From Bacteroides cellulosilyticus (lineage in GTDB: Bacteria > Bacteroidota > Bacteroidia > Bacteroidales > Bacteroidaceae), in the NCBI RefSeq assembly GCF_020091405.1, contig NZ_CP081903.1:248001-312000 (forward strand): a DNA stretch of 64,000 nucleotides, read 5' to 3'. Shown here piece by piece: positions 5,416 through 21,493 of the stretch (its first letter is position 1; each line of letters begins with the position of its first letter). The position numbers and the translations under genes are program-made. The notes under the pieces were generated by a model. It was not told the DNA's origin, searched no databases, and saw only the letters and a program-made list of their open reading frames with translations.

Positions 5416-8400
5416 AAAGATTAATTCTACTTCTTGCTATTGTCTTTCTGGGCACCGGACTCCGTGCCGCCTCCGTGCTTCCCGTAGGTGAAAGCAAGTT
5501 CACCTACAAAGACTATCCTCCCTTTGCCGACCGTCCGGTAGATGTGCACTATTACATTCCGGCTTCGGGCGATGTACGCCGGATGCCCATTGTCTTTGTC
5601 TTTGAAGGTGCCGACCGCGGTTTCACCTATCTGCTCAAAGCCTGGAAGCAGGAGGCAGAGAAACATAAATTCATGGTTTTCATCCCACACTTCGATCTGG
5701 AAAGGTTTCCTTTGCCCGATTATCAGGAAATCGGTGTCATGGACGACAAGGATCATACGATACGTCCGGCTGAAAAGCGAACGCCGGCACTGGTTGATAA
5801 AATCTTTGAGTACGTCTGCCAATCTTCAGGTAGTGAACGGAAAGGATATATGATTTACGGTCACTCAGCCGGAGGGCAGTTTGTGCAGCGTTTCATGCTT
5901 TTTCATGACAGCCCGTATGTGGAGAAAGCTGTTATCGGCAGTCCGGGATGGTACACTTTCCCCGATGCTTCGCAAGATTTTCCCTACGGAGTACGCAACA
6001 TTCCGTATGTCACCCCCGAAACAATCAAGAAGTATCTTGCCAAACCGATTATCCTCCAACTGGCTACGGGAGATACCATCCGCGAATCATATTTAAGGAA
6101 GACTCCCGAAGCCGAAGCACAGGGATGCAACCGTTACGAGCGCGGTAATCAGTTCTACCAATACCTCCACCGGATAGCCGCCGAACACAACTGGCCCTGC
6201 AACTGGCAGAAAATAGAAGAACAGGGCATCGGACACCACTCCACCGAAATGGGCCGACGTGCCGTTCCTGTCATGTTGGGAGACTCCCTACATGCACTGT
6301 TCATAGGCAACAGCTACACGCAATACAACCGTTTAGTCCGACAAGTGCAGGCCCTTGCCGCCTCCACCGGCCATAAGCTTTCGGTAAAATTGGTGGAACA
6401 CGGCGGCTGGACATTGAAGAAACATGCTGCCAACCCTGAAACCCTGAATGCCATCCGTGAAGGAAACTGGGATTTCGTCATCCTGCAAGACCAAAGTAAA
6501 GCGCCTGCCCGCGAAAAGGAATGGGTGCGGGAGAATGTGTACAAGCCTGCCCACTCCCTCGACAGCCTGCGCCGCCTCTACAATCCGAAAGGAAAAACCG
6601 TTTTCTACATGACTTGGGGACACGACATCAACACGTATGCCGAAATGCAGCAACGACTGGCTGAAAGTTATTTGGAGATGACCGCGCAACTGAATGCCTG
6701 GTGTGCCCCCGTCGGCATCGCCTGGAAGCGTGTCCGCACGGAAAATCCAAGCATCACGCTTTACAATAACGATCACAGCCACCCTTCCCGACAGGGTTCT
6801 TATCTTGTCGCCAATGTATTCTGTAGCGTATTTTTTCAGAAACCCTATACAGGCACTTATTATGCCGGACTGCCCGAAGAGGAAGCGCTCTATCTGCAAC
6901 GCATTGCGCAAGAAACCGTATTCAGCAACCCTTCTCTCTGGAATATCCAGCCCACGGTGCAACCGGAAGAGGTAGCCCGCCGTTTCTATCCCGAACCGGA
7001 ACAGCAATATTCCACTCCCACCCTCGGCAAGCCGCTTGAAGAAGGTCTGGCTTCCTTGTTCGAGATAAACAGGTATTTGAAGGATTTAGCCGACAGGCAT
7101 CCCGATAAGGTTACGCTGTCCGATATAGGAAAGACTCCACAGGGCAGGGATATCCCCGTGCTCTATTTCGGAACTCCCAACGAGAAAAAGAAAATAAGGG
7201 TCTGGATACAGGCAGGACTGCATGGCAACGAACCTGCCGGACCGGAAGCAACCTGTATGCTTGTCGATTATTTACTGAATACGCCCGAAGGTGCCGAACT
7301 ATTGAAAAAGGTTTCTCTTGCGCTTGTACCCGTAGCCAATACAGATGGTTATGCCATGCAAAGCCGTAAATCGGGTAGTGGGTATGATTTGAACCGGGAT
7401 CAAAGTAAACTTGCCGATCCGGTGGCTCTTCTTCTTAAAAAAGCGTACAAGGAATGGAATCCCGAAATAGCGCTGGACATCCACGAATTCAATCCTTTCC
7501 GCAAGGAATTTGAATTGCTGCGGGGTACTAAAGCAGCTACGGCCGCCGATGTCCTTTTCCTACCCAGCGGGCATTTGAATATCCCTGCCGGAATACGTAC
7601 ACTTTCCAACGGCTTATTCCGTGAAGAAGCAGAGAAGGCATTGGAGGCTAACGGTTATCATTCAGGCTTTTACTTTACCCCCAGTGTCAGGAGCGATAGT
7701 TTGTATGCAATGAAAGATGCCAAGAGCCCGCAATCCAGTTCCACGTTTCAGGGGCTTACCAATGCGGTATCTCTGTTCATAGAAATACGTGGAATAGGAT
7801 TGGGAAGAGCATGTTTTGCCCGTCGTGCAGAATGTGGTTTTCTGGTATCCCGCAGTCTTTTGGAAACGACGGCTCTTCATTCAAAAGAAGTAAGAAGTGA
7901 GATACGAAAGGCAGTGAAAGAGACTTGCAGCGGAAAGAGTGATATATTCGTCACTTTTCAATCTGCACGGACAGAGCTTCCCGTTACTTTTATTGACCTT
8001 GCTAAGAACGAACGTTTTACGGAACCTCTGCCTACTTTCGATGCGCTTCAACTGAAAGCTGAGTTAGTACGCAAACGTCCCAAAGCATATATTCTGCCGG
8101 ATACCTGCCGGATGCAAGCAGAGAAATTGCGGGCTTTAGGAATAGAGGTAGAAGAGATAGGAAAACCCTTCACAACCACCGTAGAGAAGTATATGGTTAC
8201 CGGATACAAGAAAGCTACCAAGGAATGGGAAAAGATTTATCCAGTCACAGTATCTACACGGATGGAAAAGGAAAAGAAGAGCTTCCCGGCAGGTTGTTTC
8301 ATCATTCGTCTTTCACAGAAGAATGCGAACCTTGCGGTAACGCTGTTAGAACCGGAGTCCGTGAATGGCTTTGTCAATTTCGAAGTGGTTCATACGGAGT

Positions 8401-8438
8401 TGAGGAAAGAGTTGCCGATATACAGGAAAGGTTTCTAA
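5412..8438 (+). CDS. Secreted three-domain protein: alpha/beta-hydrolase + SGNH-like hydrolase + M14 carboxypeptidase
   Basis: 1008 residues with an N-terminal signal peptide (cleavage after about LRA at 17-19), so it acts in the periplasm or outside. Domain 1 (about 25-290) is an alpha/beta-hydrolase with nucleophile motif GHSAGG, Ser152. Domain 2 (about 293-480) resembles SGNH/GDSL hydrolases: FIGNSYT with Ser301 at the start and DHSH (Asp454, His457) near the end. Domain 3 (about 545-800) is an M14 zinc carboxypeptidase: HGNE ligands His604 and Glu607, LNR at 660-662, third ligand His691 in DIHE, and catalytic Glu791 in FIEIRG. All three sets of catalytic residues look intact. A C-terminal region of about 200 residues is unassigned. 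The gene is translationally coupled to iadA. Such a fusion could remove an acyl or ester group and then trim peptides, but no substrate is shown. Confidence 0.85.
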   Translation: MKRLILLLAIVFLGTGLRAASVLPVGESKFTYKDYPPFADRPVDVHYYIPASGDVRRMPIVFVFEGADRGFTYLLKAWKQEAEKHKFMVFIPHFDLERFPLPDYQEIGVMDDKDHTIRPAEKRTPALVDKIFEYVCQSSGSERKGYMIYGHSAGGQFVQRFMLFHDSPYVEKAVIGSPGWYTFPDASQDFPYGVRNIPYVTPETIKKYLAKPIILQLATGDTIRESYLRKTPEAEAQGCNRYERGNQFYQYLHRIAAEHNWPCNWQKIEEQGIGHHSTEMGRRAVPVMLGDSLHALFIGNSYTQYNRLVRQVQALAASTGHKLSVKLVEHGGWTLKKHAANPETLNAIREGNWDFVILQDQSKAPAREKEWVRENVYKPAHSLDSLRRLYNPKGKTVFYMTWGHDINTYAEMQQRLAESYLEMTAQLNAWCAPVGIAWKRVRTENPSITLYNNDHSHPSRQGSYLVANVFCSVFFQKPYTGTYYAGLPEEEALYLQRIAQETVFSNPSLWNIQPTVQPEEVARRFYPEPEQQYSTPTLGKPLEEGLASLFEINRYLKDLADRHPDKVTLSDIGKTPQGRDIPVLYFGTPNEKKKIRVWIQAGLHGNEPAGPEATCMLVDYLLNTPEGAELLKKVSLALVPVANTDGYAMQSRKSGSGYDLNRDQSKLADPVALLLKKAYKEWNPEIALDIHEFNPFRKEFELLRGTKAATAADVLFLPSGHLNIPAGIRTLSNGLFREEAEKALEANGYHSGFYFTPSVRSDSLYAMKDAKSPQSSSTFQGLTNAVSLFIEIRGIGLGRACFARRAECGFLVSRSLLETTALHSKEVRSEIRKAVKETCSGKSDIFVTFQSARTELPVTFIDLAKNERFTEPLPTFDALQLKAELVRKRPKAYILPDTCRMQAEKLRALGIEVEEIGKPFTTTVEKYMVTGYKKATKEWEKIYPVTVSTRMEKEKKSFPAGCFIIRLSQKNANLAVTLLEPESVNGFVNFEVVHTELRKELPIYRKGF

Positions 8439-8497
8439 CTCCATTCCGATTCATTACACATCAAATCGATTAATTCTTTTTTGTAGGGTTATGAATC

Positions 8498-8520
8498 TTT
8501 TCACCACAGAGTAACACAGA
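8498..8520 (+). repeat. Left arm of a dispersed Bacteroides hairpin repeat, split by the IS110 element
   Basis: A 23-bp arm containing CACCACAGAGTAACACAGA; its exact reverse complement is at 9897-9919, on the far side of the insertion element. The right part of the hairpin continues inwards from 9919 to about 9845. A diverged copy of the same repeat occurs at about 43019-43055. The family is an intergenic hairpin that is common in Bacteroides genomes. Confidence 0.8.
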
Positions 8521-8606
8521 ATTCTAAGACCTGAGCAAATAATTCGGTCTAAAAACACTGTTAATAAAACCAAACGAGTAGTGGAGCGTAATGCTTCCCT
8601 GCTCGT

Positions 8607-9608
8607 TTATTCTTTATACGTGATTAAATCAACAAAGGGTGTCCCTCTTCTGACTACTGCAAACATTCTGCACACAAGTTTAAACTTTACCGCATTCAGC
8701 ACTACTCCATGTTCTTTTCCCTCTTTTCTTTTCCTTTCATAATACTCTTTGAGTTCCTTATCCCATACAACGGCCGATCTTGCAGCCTGCGATAGATCCG
8801 CTTTCAATAGTCTGGCTCCCGTAGCACATACCCTTGTTTTCCCTTTCACACTGGTTCCTGAAGAATGTTCAAAAGGGGCAATACCCAGATAACAGGCATA
8901 TTGCCGTGCGGTTTCAAATGCCTTGAAATTATTAGTATGTATGATTGTATTGATGGCATTAACACTACCAATCCCTTTAATGCTGTTAAGAAGCTGATAG
9001 TTTAAGTTCATAGTCGGATCAGAGCTGACAATCCCGTGCATCTCATCTTCTACGCTTTGAATTTGTTTTTCCAGAATCTTAACCATTTCTTCTGCCCGCC
9101 TGCTCGTAGAGGTGGACTCCCGGTCTTTTCTGTCCGTGATAAATCCCTTGTTTTCAGTCAGATGCTTAACCAGGCGTTTCCTTTCGGACGACAAGTCACG
9201 CAAGATAAGGACAGCACTGCCGGAAAGTTTGGAATAGGTCAATTCATCCCGATGCAAGTAACCGTAGTAAGCTATCCGCTCGGCATCCACACGGTCATTC
9301 TTTCCACGGACAAGCCCCAGAGAACGCTTTAAATCCAGAGGAGTGAAAGAACTGTAATCTTGTTTACATGACTCTAAAAACAGACATAAATCATAGCTGT
9401 AAATGCCTGTATTCTCCAAGCAGATGACAGTCTGTTTAGGAGAAATACGCTTCTGCTTCATCCAGGCAAACAATGCTTGATAACCCGTTTTATTATTCGA
9501 GACTTGCTTGTAGTTTGTCTCATCCGCATGTTTCTTTGCGGGATCGTAAATAACAACATCAAGTGTTTTTTTACTGATGTCAATGCCAATAAACCATTTC
9601 TTTTTCAT
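8607..9608 (-). CDS. IS110-family DEDD recombinase (transposase)
   Basis: 333 residues, full length for the family. The N-terminal RuvC-like DEDD domain shows Asp10 in GIDIS, Glu65 in CLENTG, and the pair Asp105/Asp108 in GKNDRVDAERIAYY. A coiled-coil segment follows near residues 140-195 (transposase_9/20 linker). The C-terminal transposase_20 domain contains the helix-hairpin-like LNSIKGIGSVNAINTII, then IAPFEHSSGTSVKGK with the conserved serine that attacks DNA, and RLLKADLSQAARSA. No frameshift, so the enzyme is probably active. It catalyses RNA-guided recombination of a circular donor into a target specified by the bridge RNA encoded upstream. Confidence 0.95.
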   Translation of the reverse strand: MKKKWFIGIDISKKTLDVVIYDPAKKHADETNYKQVSNNKTGYQALFAWMKQKRISPKQTVICLENTGIYSYDLCLFLESCKQDYSSFTPLDLKRSLGLVRGKNDRVDAERIAYYGYLHRDELTYSKLSGSAVLILRDLSSERKRLVKHLTENKGFITDRKDRESTSTSRRAEEMVKILEKQIQSVEDEMHGIVSSDPTMNLNYQLLNSIKGIGSVNAINTIIHTNNFKAFETARQYACYLGIAPFEHSSGTSVKGKTRVCATGARLLKADLSQAARSAVVWDKELKEYYERKRKEGKEHGVVLNAVKFKLVCRMFAVVRRGTPFVDLITYKE

Positions 9609-9629
9609 AACTTCGCATTACTTATTTGA

Positions 9630-9785
9630 AGTTAACCATAGGTTGAACTCACTAAATCCTTTAATAGGCCAACGACCTAAAATTCTAATTGGGACGATTC
9701 AACTGAAAAGGGAGGCAGGACTAGTTCTGTGTATAGGGCTTCTGCCTAGATCTCACAATAGGTCACCCGCTTCCCTTGGTTAACT
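9630..9785 (-). ncRNA. Candidate bridge RNA of the IS110 element
   Basis: Read on the minus strand, 22 nt before the recombinase start. A perfect 9-bp stem closes it (AGTTAACCA at 9785-9777 with TGGTTAACT at 9638-9630). Two internal stem-loops follow. Loop 1 is closed by GGGA-AG-CGGG pairing CCUG-CC-UCCC and holds UGUGAGA on its 5' side and ACACAG on its 3' side, with a small UAGG/CCUA hairpin between. Loop 2 is closed by GUUGAA/UUCAAC and holds UUAGAAUU (5') and UAAAGGA (3'), again with a UAGG/CCUA hairpin between. UGUGAGA equals the left target flank, ACACAG is complementary to core plus right target, UUAGAAUU equals the left donor end, and UAAAGGA is complementary to the right donor end. 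Order and sense are those of known bridge RNAs. Confidence 0.83.
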
Positions 9786-9844
9786 CTTATTAACTACAAA
9801 GGTAATATTTCAACCCTAAGTTTTAGTAATGCAAATCTAAAGGA

Positions 9845-9919
9845 GTCTCACAGAGTTTAATCAATTTGAAATCAAAAGAATAGAACTCCGTGATACTCTG
9901 TGTTACTCTGTGGTGAAAA
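9845..9919 (+). repeat. Right part of the hairpin repeat interrupted by IS110
   Basis: GTCTCACAGAGTTT near 9845-9858 pairs loosely with AACTCCGTGATACTCTG at about 9885-9900, and 9897-9919 is the exact complement of 8498-8520. Together with the left arm this rebuilds one long hairpin, which locates the insertion inside its 5' arm. Confidence 0.7.
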
Positions 9920-10005: not shown

Positions 10006-10115
10006 ATTGGTCGTAGTGAAACACTAGTTCAGTCGTAGTGGGAAGTGCTTTCAGTCGTAGTGGGAAATGGGTTCAGTCGTAGTGGGAAGTATGTTCAGTC
10101 CTAATGGGAATATAG
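10006..10115 (+). repeat. Five tandem 22-bp direct repeats
   Basis: Units begin at 10006, 10028, 10050, 10072 and 10094, exactly 22 bp apart. The core is TTCAGTCGTAGTGGGAA followed by a variable 5 bp; the first and last units are diverged (TTGGTCGTAGTGAAA, TTCAGTCCTAATGGGAA). The stretch 9920-10302 holds no gene. The spacing of two helical turns suggests a protein-binding array or a slipped-strand repeat; the function is unknown. Confidence 0.85.
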
Positions 10116-17540: not shown

Positions 17541-20121
17541 GTTGTAATTTGCTTCTCATTTTTGTATTTTTGAACCATAGGAAACAGTATCAACACTTCC
17601 AATGATAGAACCAAAAGGGTTGTGATTTGCTTTCATTTTAGTATCTTTGAACCATAGGAAACAGTTTTAAAAGCATTTTGCAGATACACGTATGAGTTGT
17701 GATTTGCTTTCATTTTAGTATCTTTGAACCATAGGAAACAGTTAATTGGATAAGACGGTCATCTACCTTTCTGTTGTGATTTGCTTTCATTTTAGTATCT
17801 TTGAACCATAGGAAACAGTTGCAATTGCTGCACGGAGCAACCAAGAGTGGTTGTGATTTGCTTTCATTTTAGTATCTTTGAACCATAGGAAACAGTCAAA
17901 TATTTTATAATAACAGCTCATACCTAGTTGTGATTTGCTTTCATTTTAGTATCTTTGAACCATAGGAAACAGTCGGCAGTCTGCCATCTATATTCATGCT
18001 GATGTTGTGATTTGCTTTCATTTTAGTATCTTTGAACCATAGGAAACAGTTATGTTACAGGAAGAAGGAAGCCAAGCAAGTTGTGATTTGCTTTCATTTT
18101 AGTATCTTTGAACCATAGGAAACAGTTTCGTTCCCGTTCTAATGCAGATAAAATAGTTGTGATTTGCTTTCATTTTAGTATCTTTGAACCATAGGAAACA
18201 GTGTAGTCCCGAAGAATACACATTGGCGGGGGGTTGTGATTTGCTTTCATTTTAGTATCTTTGAACCATAGGAAACAGTAGATAGCTTGTTGAAAATTTC
18301 CTTCTCCGAGTTGTGATTTGCTTTCATTTTAGTATCTTTGAACCATAGGAAACAGTCGCAGAATTAACTATGTCAGCGGGTCTTGGTTGTGATTTGCTTT
18401 CATTTTAGTATCTTTGAACCATAGGAAACAGTCGGCTCACTCTCGCACCCCGGTCGTGGCGGGTTGTGATTTGCTTTCATTTTAGTATCTTTGAACCATA
18501 GGAAACAGTAAATAATAACAATTTAAAGATTATGAAAGAGTTGTGATTTGCTTTCATTTTAGTATCTTTGAACCATAGGAAACAGTGATAGTATGTTAGT
18601 CCTGCAATCAGATCAGTTGTGATTTGCTTTCATTTTAGTATCTTTGAACCATAGGAAACAGTTTTACGTCCGTTGCTATTTCAAATAGCTGCGTTGTGAT
18701 TTGCTTTCATTTTAGTATCTTTGAACCATAGGAAACAGTTGCCCTCAAAGGGATGTTTGCAGCCCATTCGTTGTGATTTGCTTTCATTTTAGTATCTTTG
18801 AACCATAGGAAACAGTAAATTATAATTTCATCCATAGATGCTCCAGTTGTGATTTGCTTTCATTTTAGTATCTTTGAACCATAGGAAACAGTTGCAAAAA
18901 GTGTACAGAAACAGCCTCAGCAGTTGTGATTTGCTTTCATTTTAGTATCTTTGAACCATAGGAAACAGTTACGCAACGTTTGAAATACTTGGATGATATG
19001 TTGTGATTTGCTTTCATTTTAGTATCTTTGAACCATAGGAAACAGTCTGAGTGTCATCAGTAGCATCCACATTGCCGTTGTGATTTGCTTTCATTTTAGT
19101 ATCTTTGAACCATAGGAAACAGTAGTATTTGTATTCAAAGAAGAGCCATTTAGTTGTGATTTGCTTTCATTTTAGTATCTTTGAACCATAGGAAACAGTA
19201 TTGCACGATGGAGCAAGTCAAAGACTACAGTTGTGATTTGCTTTCATTTTAGTATCTTTGAACCATAGGAAACAGTCTACCAGATTAGGGTCCATCCCCT
19301 TACCCGTTGTGATTTGCTTTCATTTTAGTATCTTTGAACCATAGGAAACAGTGATATGCTTGGATGTGCGAATAGCCCCATTGTTGTGATTTGCTTTCAT
19401 TTTAGTATCTTTGAACCATAGGAAACAGTCTATCATTTTGGTACCTCGGAAAATCATCTGTTGTGATTTGCTTTCATTTTAGTATCTTTGAACCATAGGA
19501 AACAGTTATTAAAAGAAAGTCAATCAAAACTAACAGGTTGTGATTTGCTTTCATTTTAGTATCTTTGAACCATAGGAAACAGTAGGTGACATCTTCGATA
19601 TTCAGATGATTAAGTTGTGATTTGCTTTCATTTTAGTATCTTTGAACCATAGGAAACAGTGTAAATCTGCTACAGAAAGTCAACCGTTAGGTTGTGATTT
19701 GCTTTCATTTTAGTATCTTTGAACCATAGGAAACAGTAGACTATATAATAGTTGGTTACACAACAAGTTGTGATTTGCTTTCATTTTAGTATCTTTGAAC
19801 CATAGGAAACAGTTGCATGGATTAATTATATGACAAATTTCAAGTTGTGATTTGCTTTCATTTTAGTATCTTTGAACCATAGGAAACAGTTATTCAAGCA
19901 ATGGATAAGGTAAGTAATTAGTTGTGATTTGCTTTCATTTTAGTATCTTTGAACCATAGGAAACAGTTCTTTCGTTCTTCTTTATTAAACACATTTTGTT
20001 GTGATTTGCTTTCATTTTAGTATCTTTGAACCATAGGAAACAGTTGGTGTCGGGTTCTGCATGTACTGTGTATCGTTGTGATTTGCTTTCATTTTAGTAT
20101 CTTTGAACCATAGGAAACAGT
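17541..20121 (+). CRISPR. Type II-C CRISPR array, 34 repeats and 33 spacers
   Basis: The 47-bp repeat begins GTTGTGATTTGCTTTCATTT and ends CATAGGAAACAGT; 33 copies starting at 17619 show no variation in my reading. The first copy (17541-17588) is 48 bp with several substitutions and marks the cas-distal end. Spacers are 30 bp, eight of them 29 bp (numbers 7, 8, 11, 14, 17, 21, 23, 29 from the left); all differ. Pairing with the tracrRNA anti-repeat shows that crRNAs are made from the plus strand, towards cas2. Repeat positions 24-31 read TATCTTTG, a Bacteroides -7 box, and TTG at positions 2-4 lies 19 bp before it, so each repeat may initiate its own crRNA, as known for Neisseria type II-C. 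Spacer targets cannot be named without a search. Confidence 0.98.

Positions 20122-20230: not shown

Positions 20231-21493
<1,263 letters not shown>

Follow-up and report, generated by a model that had tools for sequence, protein, structure and literature searches.

An IS110-group insertion sequence with a readable bridge RNA on the minus strand of a Bacteroides cellulosilyticus contig

Positions 8518-9845 of the 64,000-nucleotide stretch of Bacteroides cellulosilyticus DNA analysed here (the window) hold, on the minus strand, an IS110-group element whose bridge RNA (approximately 9785-9630) can be read. The genome (6.94 Mb, one contig) carries six copies, identical across these 1328 bp, with differing outer flanks and all inserted, identically oriented, at one point of a single dispersed imperfect palindrome, REP-1. 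Relatives located elsewhere have RNAs that match the sites they occupy, so this is a genuine RNA-guided mobile element belonging to a kind already described, that of the IS621-type bridge recombinases, and it is very probably an active or recently active, RNA-guided insertion sequence of the IS110 group (IS621-like). RNA guidance accounts for the element's copies sitting solely in one palindrome of the genome.

The ends were set by comparing occupied with empty sites. By this comparison and the identity of the six copies, the element spans 8521-9844 (minus strand, 1324 bp with one core included). It splits REP-1 into the outer part of one arm (8500-8518) and a remainder comprising the inner part and the other arm (9845-9913), and is flanked directly by TGTGAGAC on the left (9845-9852, minus strand) and TGTGT on the right (8514-8518, minus strand). 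Six of nine TGTGAGAC sites (TGTGAGACTCTGTGT form) are occupied versus none of nine CGTGAGAC sites (CGTGAGACTCTGTGT form) (Fisher 0.009), a post hoc comparison in which three of those nine fall within an occupied repeat, in its other arm. Just past the target palindrome, the window also has a tandem repeat of GTTCAGTCGTAGTGGGAAGTGC (10027-10110, period 22, 3.8 copies). Further along there are 34 CRISPR repeats of Rfam family CRISPR-DR49 (17541-20121), and an ORF at 20564-21493 (minus strand) that we take to resemble cas1.

The recombinase (333 aa, 8607-9608, minus strand) carries both domains of the IS110 group above cut-off, DEDD RuvC-like (PF01548, E 2.6e-21) and Transposase_20 (PF02371, E 3.3e-20). 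Its nearest PDB sequence matches are ISCro4 (9t56) and IS621 (8wt6, E 1.5e-22). Residues D10, E65, D105, D108 and S250 are invariant across eight aligned relatives, and from the PDB sequence alignment, with chain numbering counted by hand, it follows that S250 would be the conserved serine of IS621. Gut-type metagenomes are rich in homologues (1215 proteins at E <= 1e-60), the best full-length one besides the window's own being 88% identical among the best 120 of the 1215. A 66% homologue among the matches listed is annotated as an IS110 family transposase of Bacteroides cellulosilyticus. One relative was found in the genome-contig search and six, none closer than 35%, in the viral-contig search, while plasmids gave no relative at 60% identity or more. 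One fetched locus (L068, G517 C25) has a tandem pair of IS110 genes with four bridge-RNA-model matches around them.

The predicted bridge RNA (9630-9785, minus strand) lies upstream of the recombinase gene and appears, as in the IS110 group, as a non-coding RNA with two loops in a long left end (234 nt, with a right end of 86 nt). Its closing stem, seen in the sequence and in the single-sequence fold, joins a 5' arm GUUAACC (9778-9784) to GGUUAAC (9631-9637); it is kept in the closest relatives but barely varies there. The single-sequence fold is moderately better than that of shuffles (z -1.80, with 8 of 200 equalling or surpassing it), and support for the predicted structure comes not from it but from covariation over 14 relatives. 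Each of the 14 left ends has a stem for the target loop, another for the donor loop and two cap hairpins, with both-side changes in 24 of 29 pairs. Such changes affect 11 of 12 pairs of the target-loop stem (helix 1; 5' arm 9766-9777, partner 9708-9719), while 3 of 3 pairs covary in the target-loop cap hairpin (helix 3, 9734-9748) and 3 of 5 in the donor-loop cap hairpin (helix 6, 9665-9679), all on the minus strand. With a consensus structure predicted from the same alignment, 92.3% of cells are paired versus 72.8% in shuffles (0/500) and 34.6-52.5% in slid versions. The original prediction of a folded RNA at 9630-9785 is thus borne out by conserved structure. Its claim that both loops carry the same UAGG/CCUA cap is correct for the window (9748-9734 and 9679-9665) but is not general among relatives, in which the caps vary with pairing kept (helices 3 and 6).

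A covariance search around relatives with the 14-sequence model finds the RNA in 34 of 58 sources outside the model (E <= 0.01), two of these matches (L065, L066) being near-copies of a model member. As far as an eye check went, the matches lie upstream of the gene and on its strand. The match in the window itself (9639-9778) is a necessary one, as the window sequence is in the model, and the relative L037 has no match at E <= 1. Rfam gives three matches up to E 5 in 8500-9870, all far under the gathering score and none overlapping 9630-9785, and has no family for this RNA.

Joined to each other, the element's ends form TTTG-N20-TAnnTTTG, which matches the Bacteroides promoter consensus; in the available text of PMC7366714, the -7 element of B. 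fragilis promoters is TAnnTTTG and TTTG lies near -33. The predicted -33 half is TTTG at 8536-8539, 15 nt from the core, and the predicted -7 half is TAGATTTG (TAnnTTTG) at 9832-9839, 3 nt from the core, both on the minus strand. Of 18 elements with both ends, 12 fit the motif with a spacer of 19-21, a count inflated by shared ancestry and including three near-copies (L036, L065, L066); the expected count is 0.005 with both ends shuffled and 0.38 of 18 with only the right end shuffled. The sequence motif for a promoter rebuilt at the circle junction, a trait of IS621, is present here in a Bacteroides-type form, and circularisation may switch on the bridge RNA through it. As an internal TAnnTTTG box is also present, the junction promoter stands as a prediction. 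It is possible, if unlikely, that the end boxes serve donor recognition or are ancestral, and that the RNA comes from the internal box TACCTTTG (9797-9804, minus strand), just upstream of the bridge RNA, or from read-through. Such an origin would fit the overlap of TAGATTTG with the stretch of donor that the right donor guide reads, the internal box found 37-52 nt before the target loop in the window element, L034, L033, L063, L114, L037 and L038, the higher of the two shuffled expectations, and the lack of a full promoter match in 6 of the 18 elements. However, TTTG lies exactly 15 nt from the core despite differing neighbouring right-end bases, and in IS621 the promoter is rebuilt at the junction (PMC11208160, available text), which favours the junction promoter.

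The core dinucleotide was originally predicted to be CT, and has to be revised to TC. Among 16 fetched places carrying related repeats (one of which, L014, holds another palindrome), three contain an intact site equal to the flanks joined on TC (TGTGAGACTCTGTGT), whereas none contains the flanks joined on CT (TGTGAGACTGTGT). CT is present at both element ends, but in a different register relative to the target. The TC join being found and the CT join absent, the core is placed at 9844-9843 on the left and at 8520-8519 on the right (minus strand), as delimited by the prefix and suffix shared between occupied and empty sites. The core is also TC in L034, a 74% relative in a different palindrome, and in L063, which adjoins an unoccupied-looking copy of its target. 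In the hand-set ends (20 left, 20 right), the second core base is C at 20/20 left and 19/20 right ends (39/40 NC), the exception being the right core of L116 (AG), and the first base varies. That the core is nevertheless CT, with an actual target two bases shorter than the genome's empty repeats, is very improbable: it would suit the CT at both ends and the CT core of IS621 (PMC11208158), but it is opposed by the counts of empty-site joins, by the TC of L034 and L063 and by the common NC register of the hand-set ends. In the available text of PMC11208158, the T of the IS621 core is near-invariant and read by a main-chain amide, and a CT core is a trait of IS621 and close orthologues, apparently not of the whole IS110 group; the TC element does not share it.

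In the nearest relative, an orthologous intergenic place without the element is found at L131 (G153 C56, 97% over window 7700-8480), but it has a different palindrome (AAAGAGTGATAAGGCGG...) and so does not settle the core; in four other fetched relatives the anchor string for the orthologous empty site was not found. At L131 another palindrome family stands where the window has REP-1 plus element, as if palindromes swap at fixed places. A separate set of palindromes, TTCTAAGACCT...AGGTCTTAGAA, has arms equal to the element's right end and is nested within other palindromes, either a terminator-like stem or REP-1-like arms. They lie in G000 (C1:361665-361702, L014/L100; 5200741-5200778, L007/L089), G039 (C93:71326-71363 and C114:54302-54339; L098, L090) and G154 (C1:2260994-2261044, L096), and 3 of 157 genus genomes contain the exact pattern. 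At E <= 0.001, no recombinase was matched in G039 or G154. These palindromes would be either what is left of paired right ends or a former target that supplied the right end. At G041:C1:2063685-2063713 (L099), a terminator-like stem AGGCACGG...CCGTGCCT surrounds AATTCTAAGACCTGAGCAAATAAT, whose 24 bases are identical to the right end of the window element.

The guide strings originally named are all in place on the minus strand. UGUGAGA (9757-9751) equals the flank 9852-9846, ACACAG (9732-9727) is complementary to 8519-8514, UUAGAAUU (9688-9681) equals the left donor end 8527-8520, and UAAAGGA (9663-9657) pairs with the right donor end 9844-9838, in an order and sense that agree with the bridge-RNA scheme in the available text of PMC11208160. 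Set against the TC core, they read as left target guide UGUGAGA-UC (9749-9757), right target guide ACACA-GA (9726-9732, pairing with TC-TGTGT at 7/7), left donor guide UUAGAAU-U (9681-9688) and right donor guide UAAAG-GA (9657-9663, pairing with TC-CTTTA), the two left guides being assigned from sequence and own-fit permutation. The right donor guide is contiguous, pairing unbroken at 7/7, and not split as in IS621. For the window alone, 1 of 20000 shuffles of the target loop matches the two target halves equally well, and for the donor loop the count is 0 of 20000.

A further refinement concerns the left target guide, which falls short of the target used by a single nucleotide. Compared with TGTGAGAC-TC, the target used six times, UGUGAGA-UC lacks one C. 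It is placed as in relatives, at the third base of the target loop, and with a best ungapped score of 7.0/9 it is the odd one out. Either the C is bulged or the pairing is slipped by one base. No site within one mismatch of TGTGAGATCTGTGTTA is found in the element's own genome, and the 157 genus genomes have no exact site and five with one mismatch.

Covariation was assessed over 22 elements, the window's and 21 relatives (36-74% identity), with n=20 per guide and wobble pairs counted as half. Included were fetched loci of at least 36% identity (rounded) whose terminal motifs allowed the ends to be placed by eye; L041 and L059, both fragments, L067, L068, L069 and L073 (35-36% or more, ends not set) and more distant loci were left out. 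The right-end cut of L063, whose flank has the unoccupied form, was for that reason shifted by a single base once a first table had been drawn up, and the left ends of L037 and L115 allow another register. All four guides fit their own element better than others' do: 7.67/9 versus 5.70 for left target plus core, 6.47/7 versus 4.73 for right target, 6.88/7 versus 6.07 for left donor and 5.33/6 versus 4.88 for right donor (each n=20; 0/20000 permutations), and each is still at 0/20000 without the near-copies L065 and L066 (n=18). Thus loop 1 covaries with the target, including the flanks of relatives elsewhere, on which the original prediction depended, and loop 2 with the donor, on the strands published. 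Controls are flat for left target versus donor loop (15331/20000), right target versus donor loop (19164/20000), right target in the same sense (11125/20000) and left target on the wrong strand (2182/20000), and not quite flat for left donor versus target loop (678/20000). Donor sequences barely vary, so the donor test leans on few elements, chiefly L063 (left donor CTATATT, guide CUAUAUU). Poor own fits are seen for left target in L036 (6.5/9), L122 (5.0/9) and L121 (6.0/9), and for right target in L121 (6.0/7) and in L065 and L066 (5/7).

REP-targeting IS3-type elements are thought to use sequence-specific protein recognition. That the palindrome is recognised by protein only, with the RNA-like region a structured leader and the guide matches due to chance or element-target homology, is scarcely credible: the six copies share one target, so that target and RNA are not independently variable within this genome, but where relatives differ in target, the loop changes with it in both halves with wrong-loop and wrong-strand controls flat, and in L065 and L066 GACAC changes to GAGAC in loop and target together when set against their near-copy L036, the three being nearly one element. 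In addition, the dinucleotide that follows the right target guide pairs with the final two bases of the left donor (the handshake), its two positions doing so in 19/20 and 17/20 elements, with matching changes in L063, L116 and L122; in the window these nucleotides are AC (9724-9725, minus strand), of which the first pairs with the last left-donor base and the second does not. A corresponding handshake of the donor loop with the target was rejected (7/20 and 7/20; first position 1598/5000 permutations).

In the proposed cycle, the recombinase, loaded with the left-end bridge RNA, would excise the element as a circle, whose junction would unite the right-end TTTG box with the left-end TAnnTTTG box into a Bacteroides-type promoter. 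Transcription from it would yield the bridge RNA and possibly the recombinase too. The target loop would pair with both REP-1 strands (left guide UGUGAGA-UC, right guide ACACA-GA) and the donor loop, through UUAGAAU-U and UAAAG-GA, with the two strands of the circle junction, and strand exchange across the TC core, presumably catalysed by the recombinase, would leave 2-bp TC copies at both ends.

RNA-guided and REP-targeting IS110 elements are already published, as the available text of PMC11208160, PMC11208158, PMC11187229 and PMC1525189 shows. Tentatively, and at somewhat less than even chances, the element may represent a Bacteroidales bridge-recombinase clade in which the core has changed from CT to NC and guide-RNA expression is tied to circularisation through a split -33/-7 promoter, and in which the window guide, out of register by one base, would require a bulge or one-base shift beside the core to be tolerated. 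A literature search that covered few subscription papers and no bioRxiv preprints gave no description of either an NC core or a Bacteroides-type junction promoter, and elements of this sort may be present in published covariation sets. Work on bridge recombinases treats them as programmable DNA-insertion tools, and the CT core limits the prototype. A clade with another core, a contiguous donor guide and a host-type promoter would provide natural sequences for testing core determinants, and natural material for testing tolerance of an extra base beside the core.

Among known systems, the E. coli element IS621, the bridge recombinase prototype, is like the window element in recombinase domains and sequence. 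As far as the available text of PMC11208160 goes, the two also share an RNA in the long left end with target loop followed by donor loop, left guides equal to the top strand and right guides complementary to it; that text and the available text of PMC11208158 add a left target guide of 7+2 core and a left donor guide of 7+1 core, a REP target and a promoter predicted across the circle junction, and PMC11208158 the handshake after the right target guide. The same sources mark the differences: the core is CT in IS621 but TC here (NC in relatives), the right donor guide is split there and contiguous here, and the junction promoter is of sigma-70 type there (PMC11208160) and predicted to be of Bacteroides type here. 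The window element further differs in that its right target guide matches 7 bases, that in its closest relatives a closing stem encloses the two loops, and that its left target guide is one base short of the target used; the donor-loop handshake of the IS621 type (PMC11208158) is not seen. ISCro4 (PDB 9t56) is the recombinase's best PDB match (E 9.7e-25, residues 5-325), a likeness of sequence match alone. The REP-targeting IS110 elements ISPa11, ISPpu9, ISPpu10 and ISRm19 have all their listed copies in repetitive palindromes (6/6, 7/7, 7/7 and 4/4), in hosts and palindromes that differ from those of the window element (PMC1525189, available text). IS1111-group (seekRNA) elements share the DEDD transposase superfamily and RNA-guided targeting, but in the available text of PMC11187229 they have longer subterminal inverted repeats (7-17 bp) and a long right end that carries the RNA, downstream of the gene, whereas in the window element the right end is the shorter one and the RNA lies upstream.
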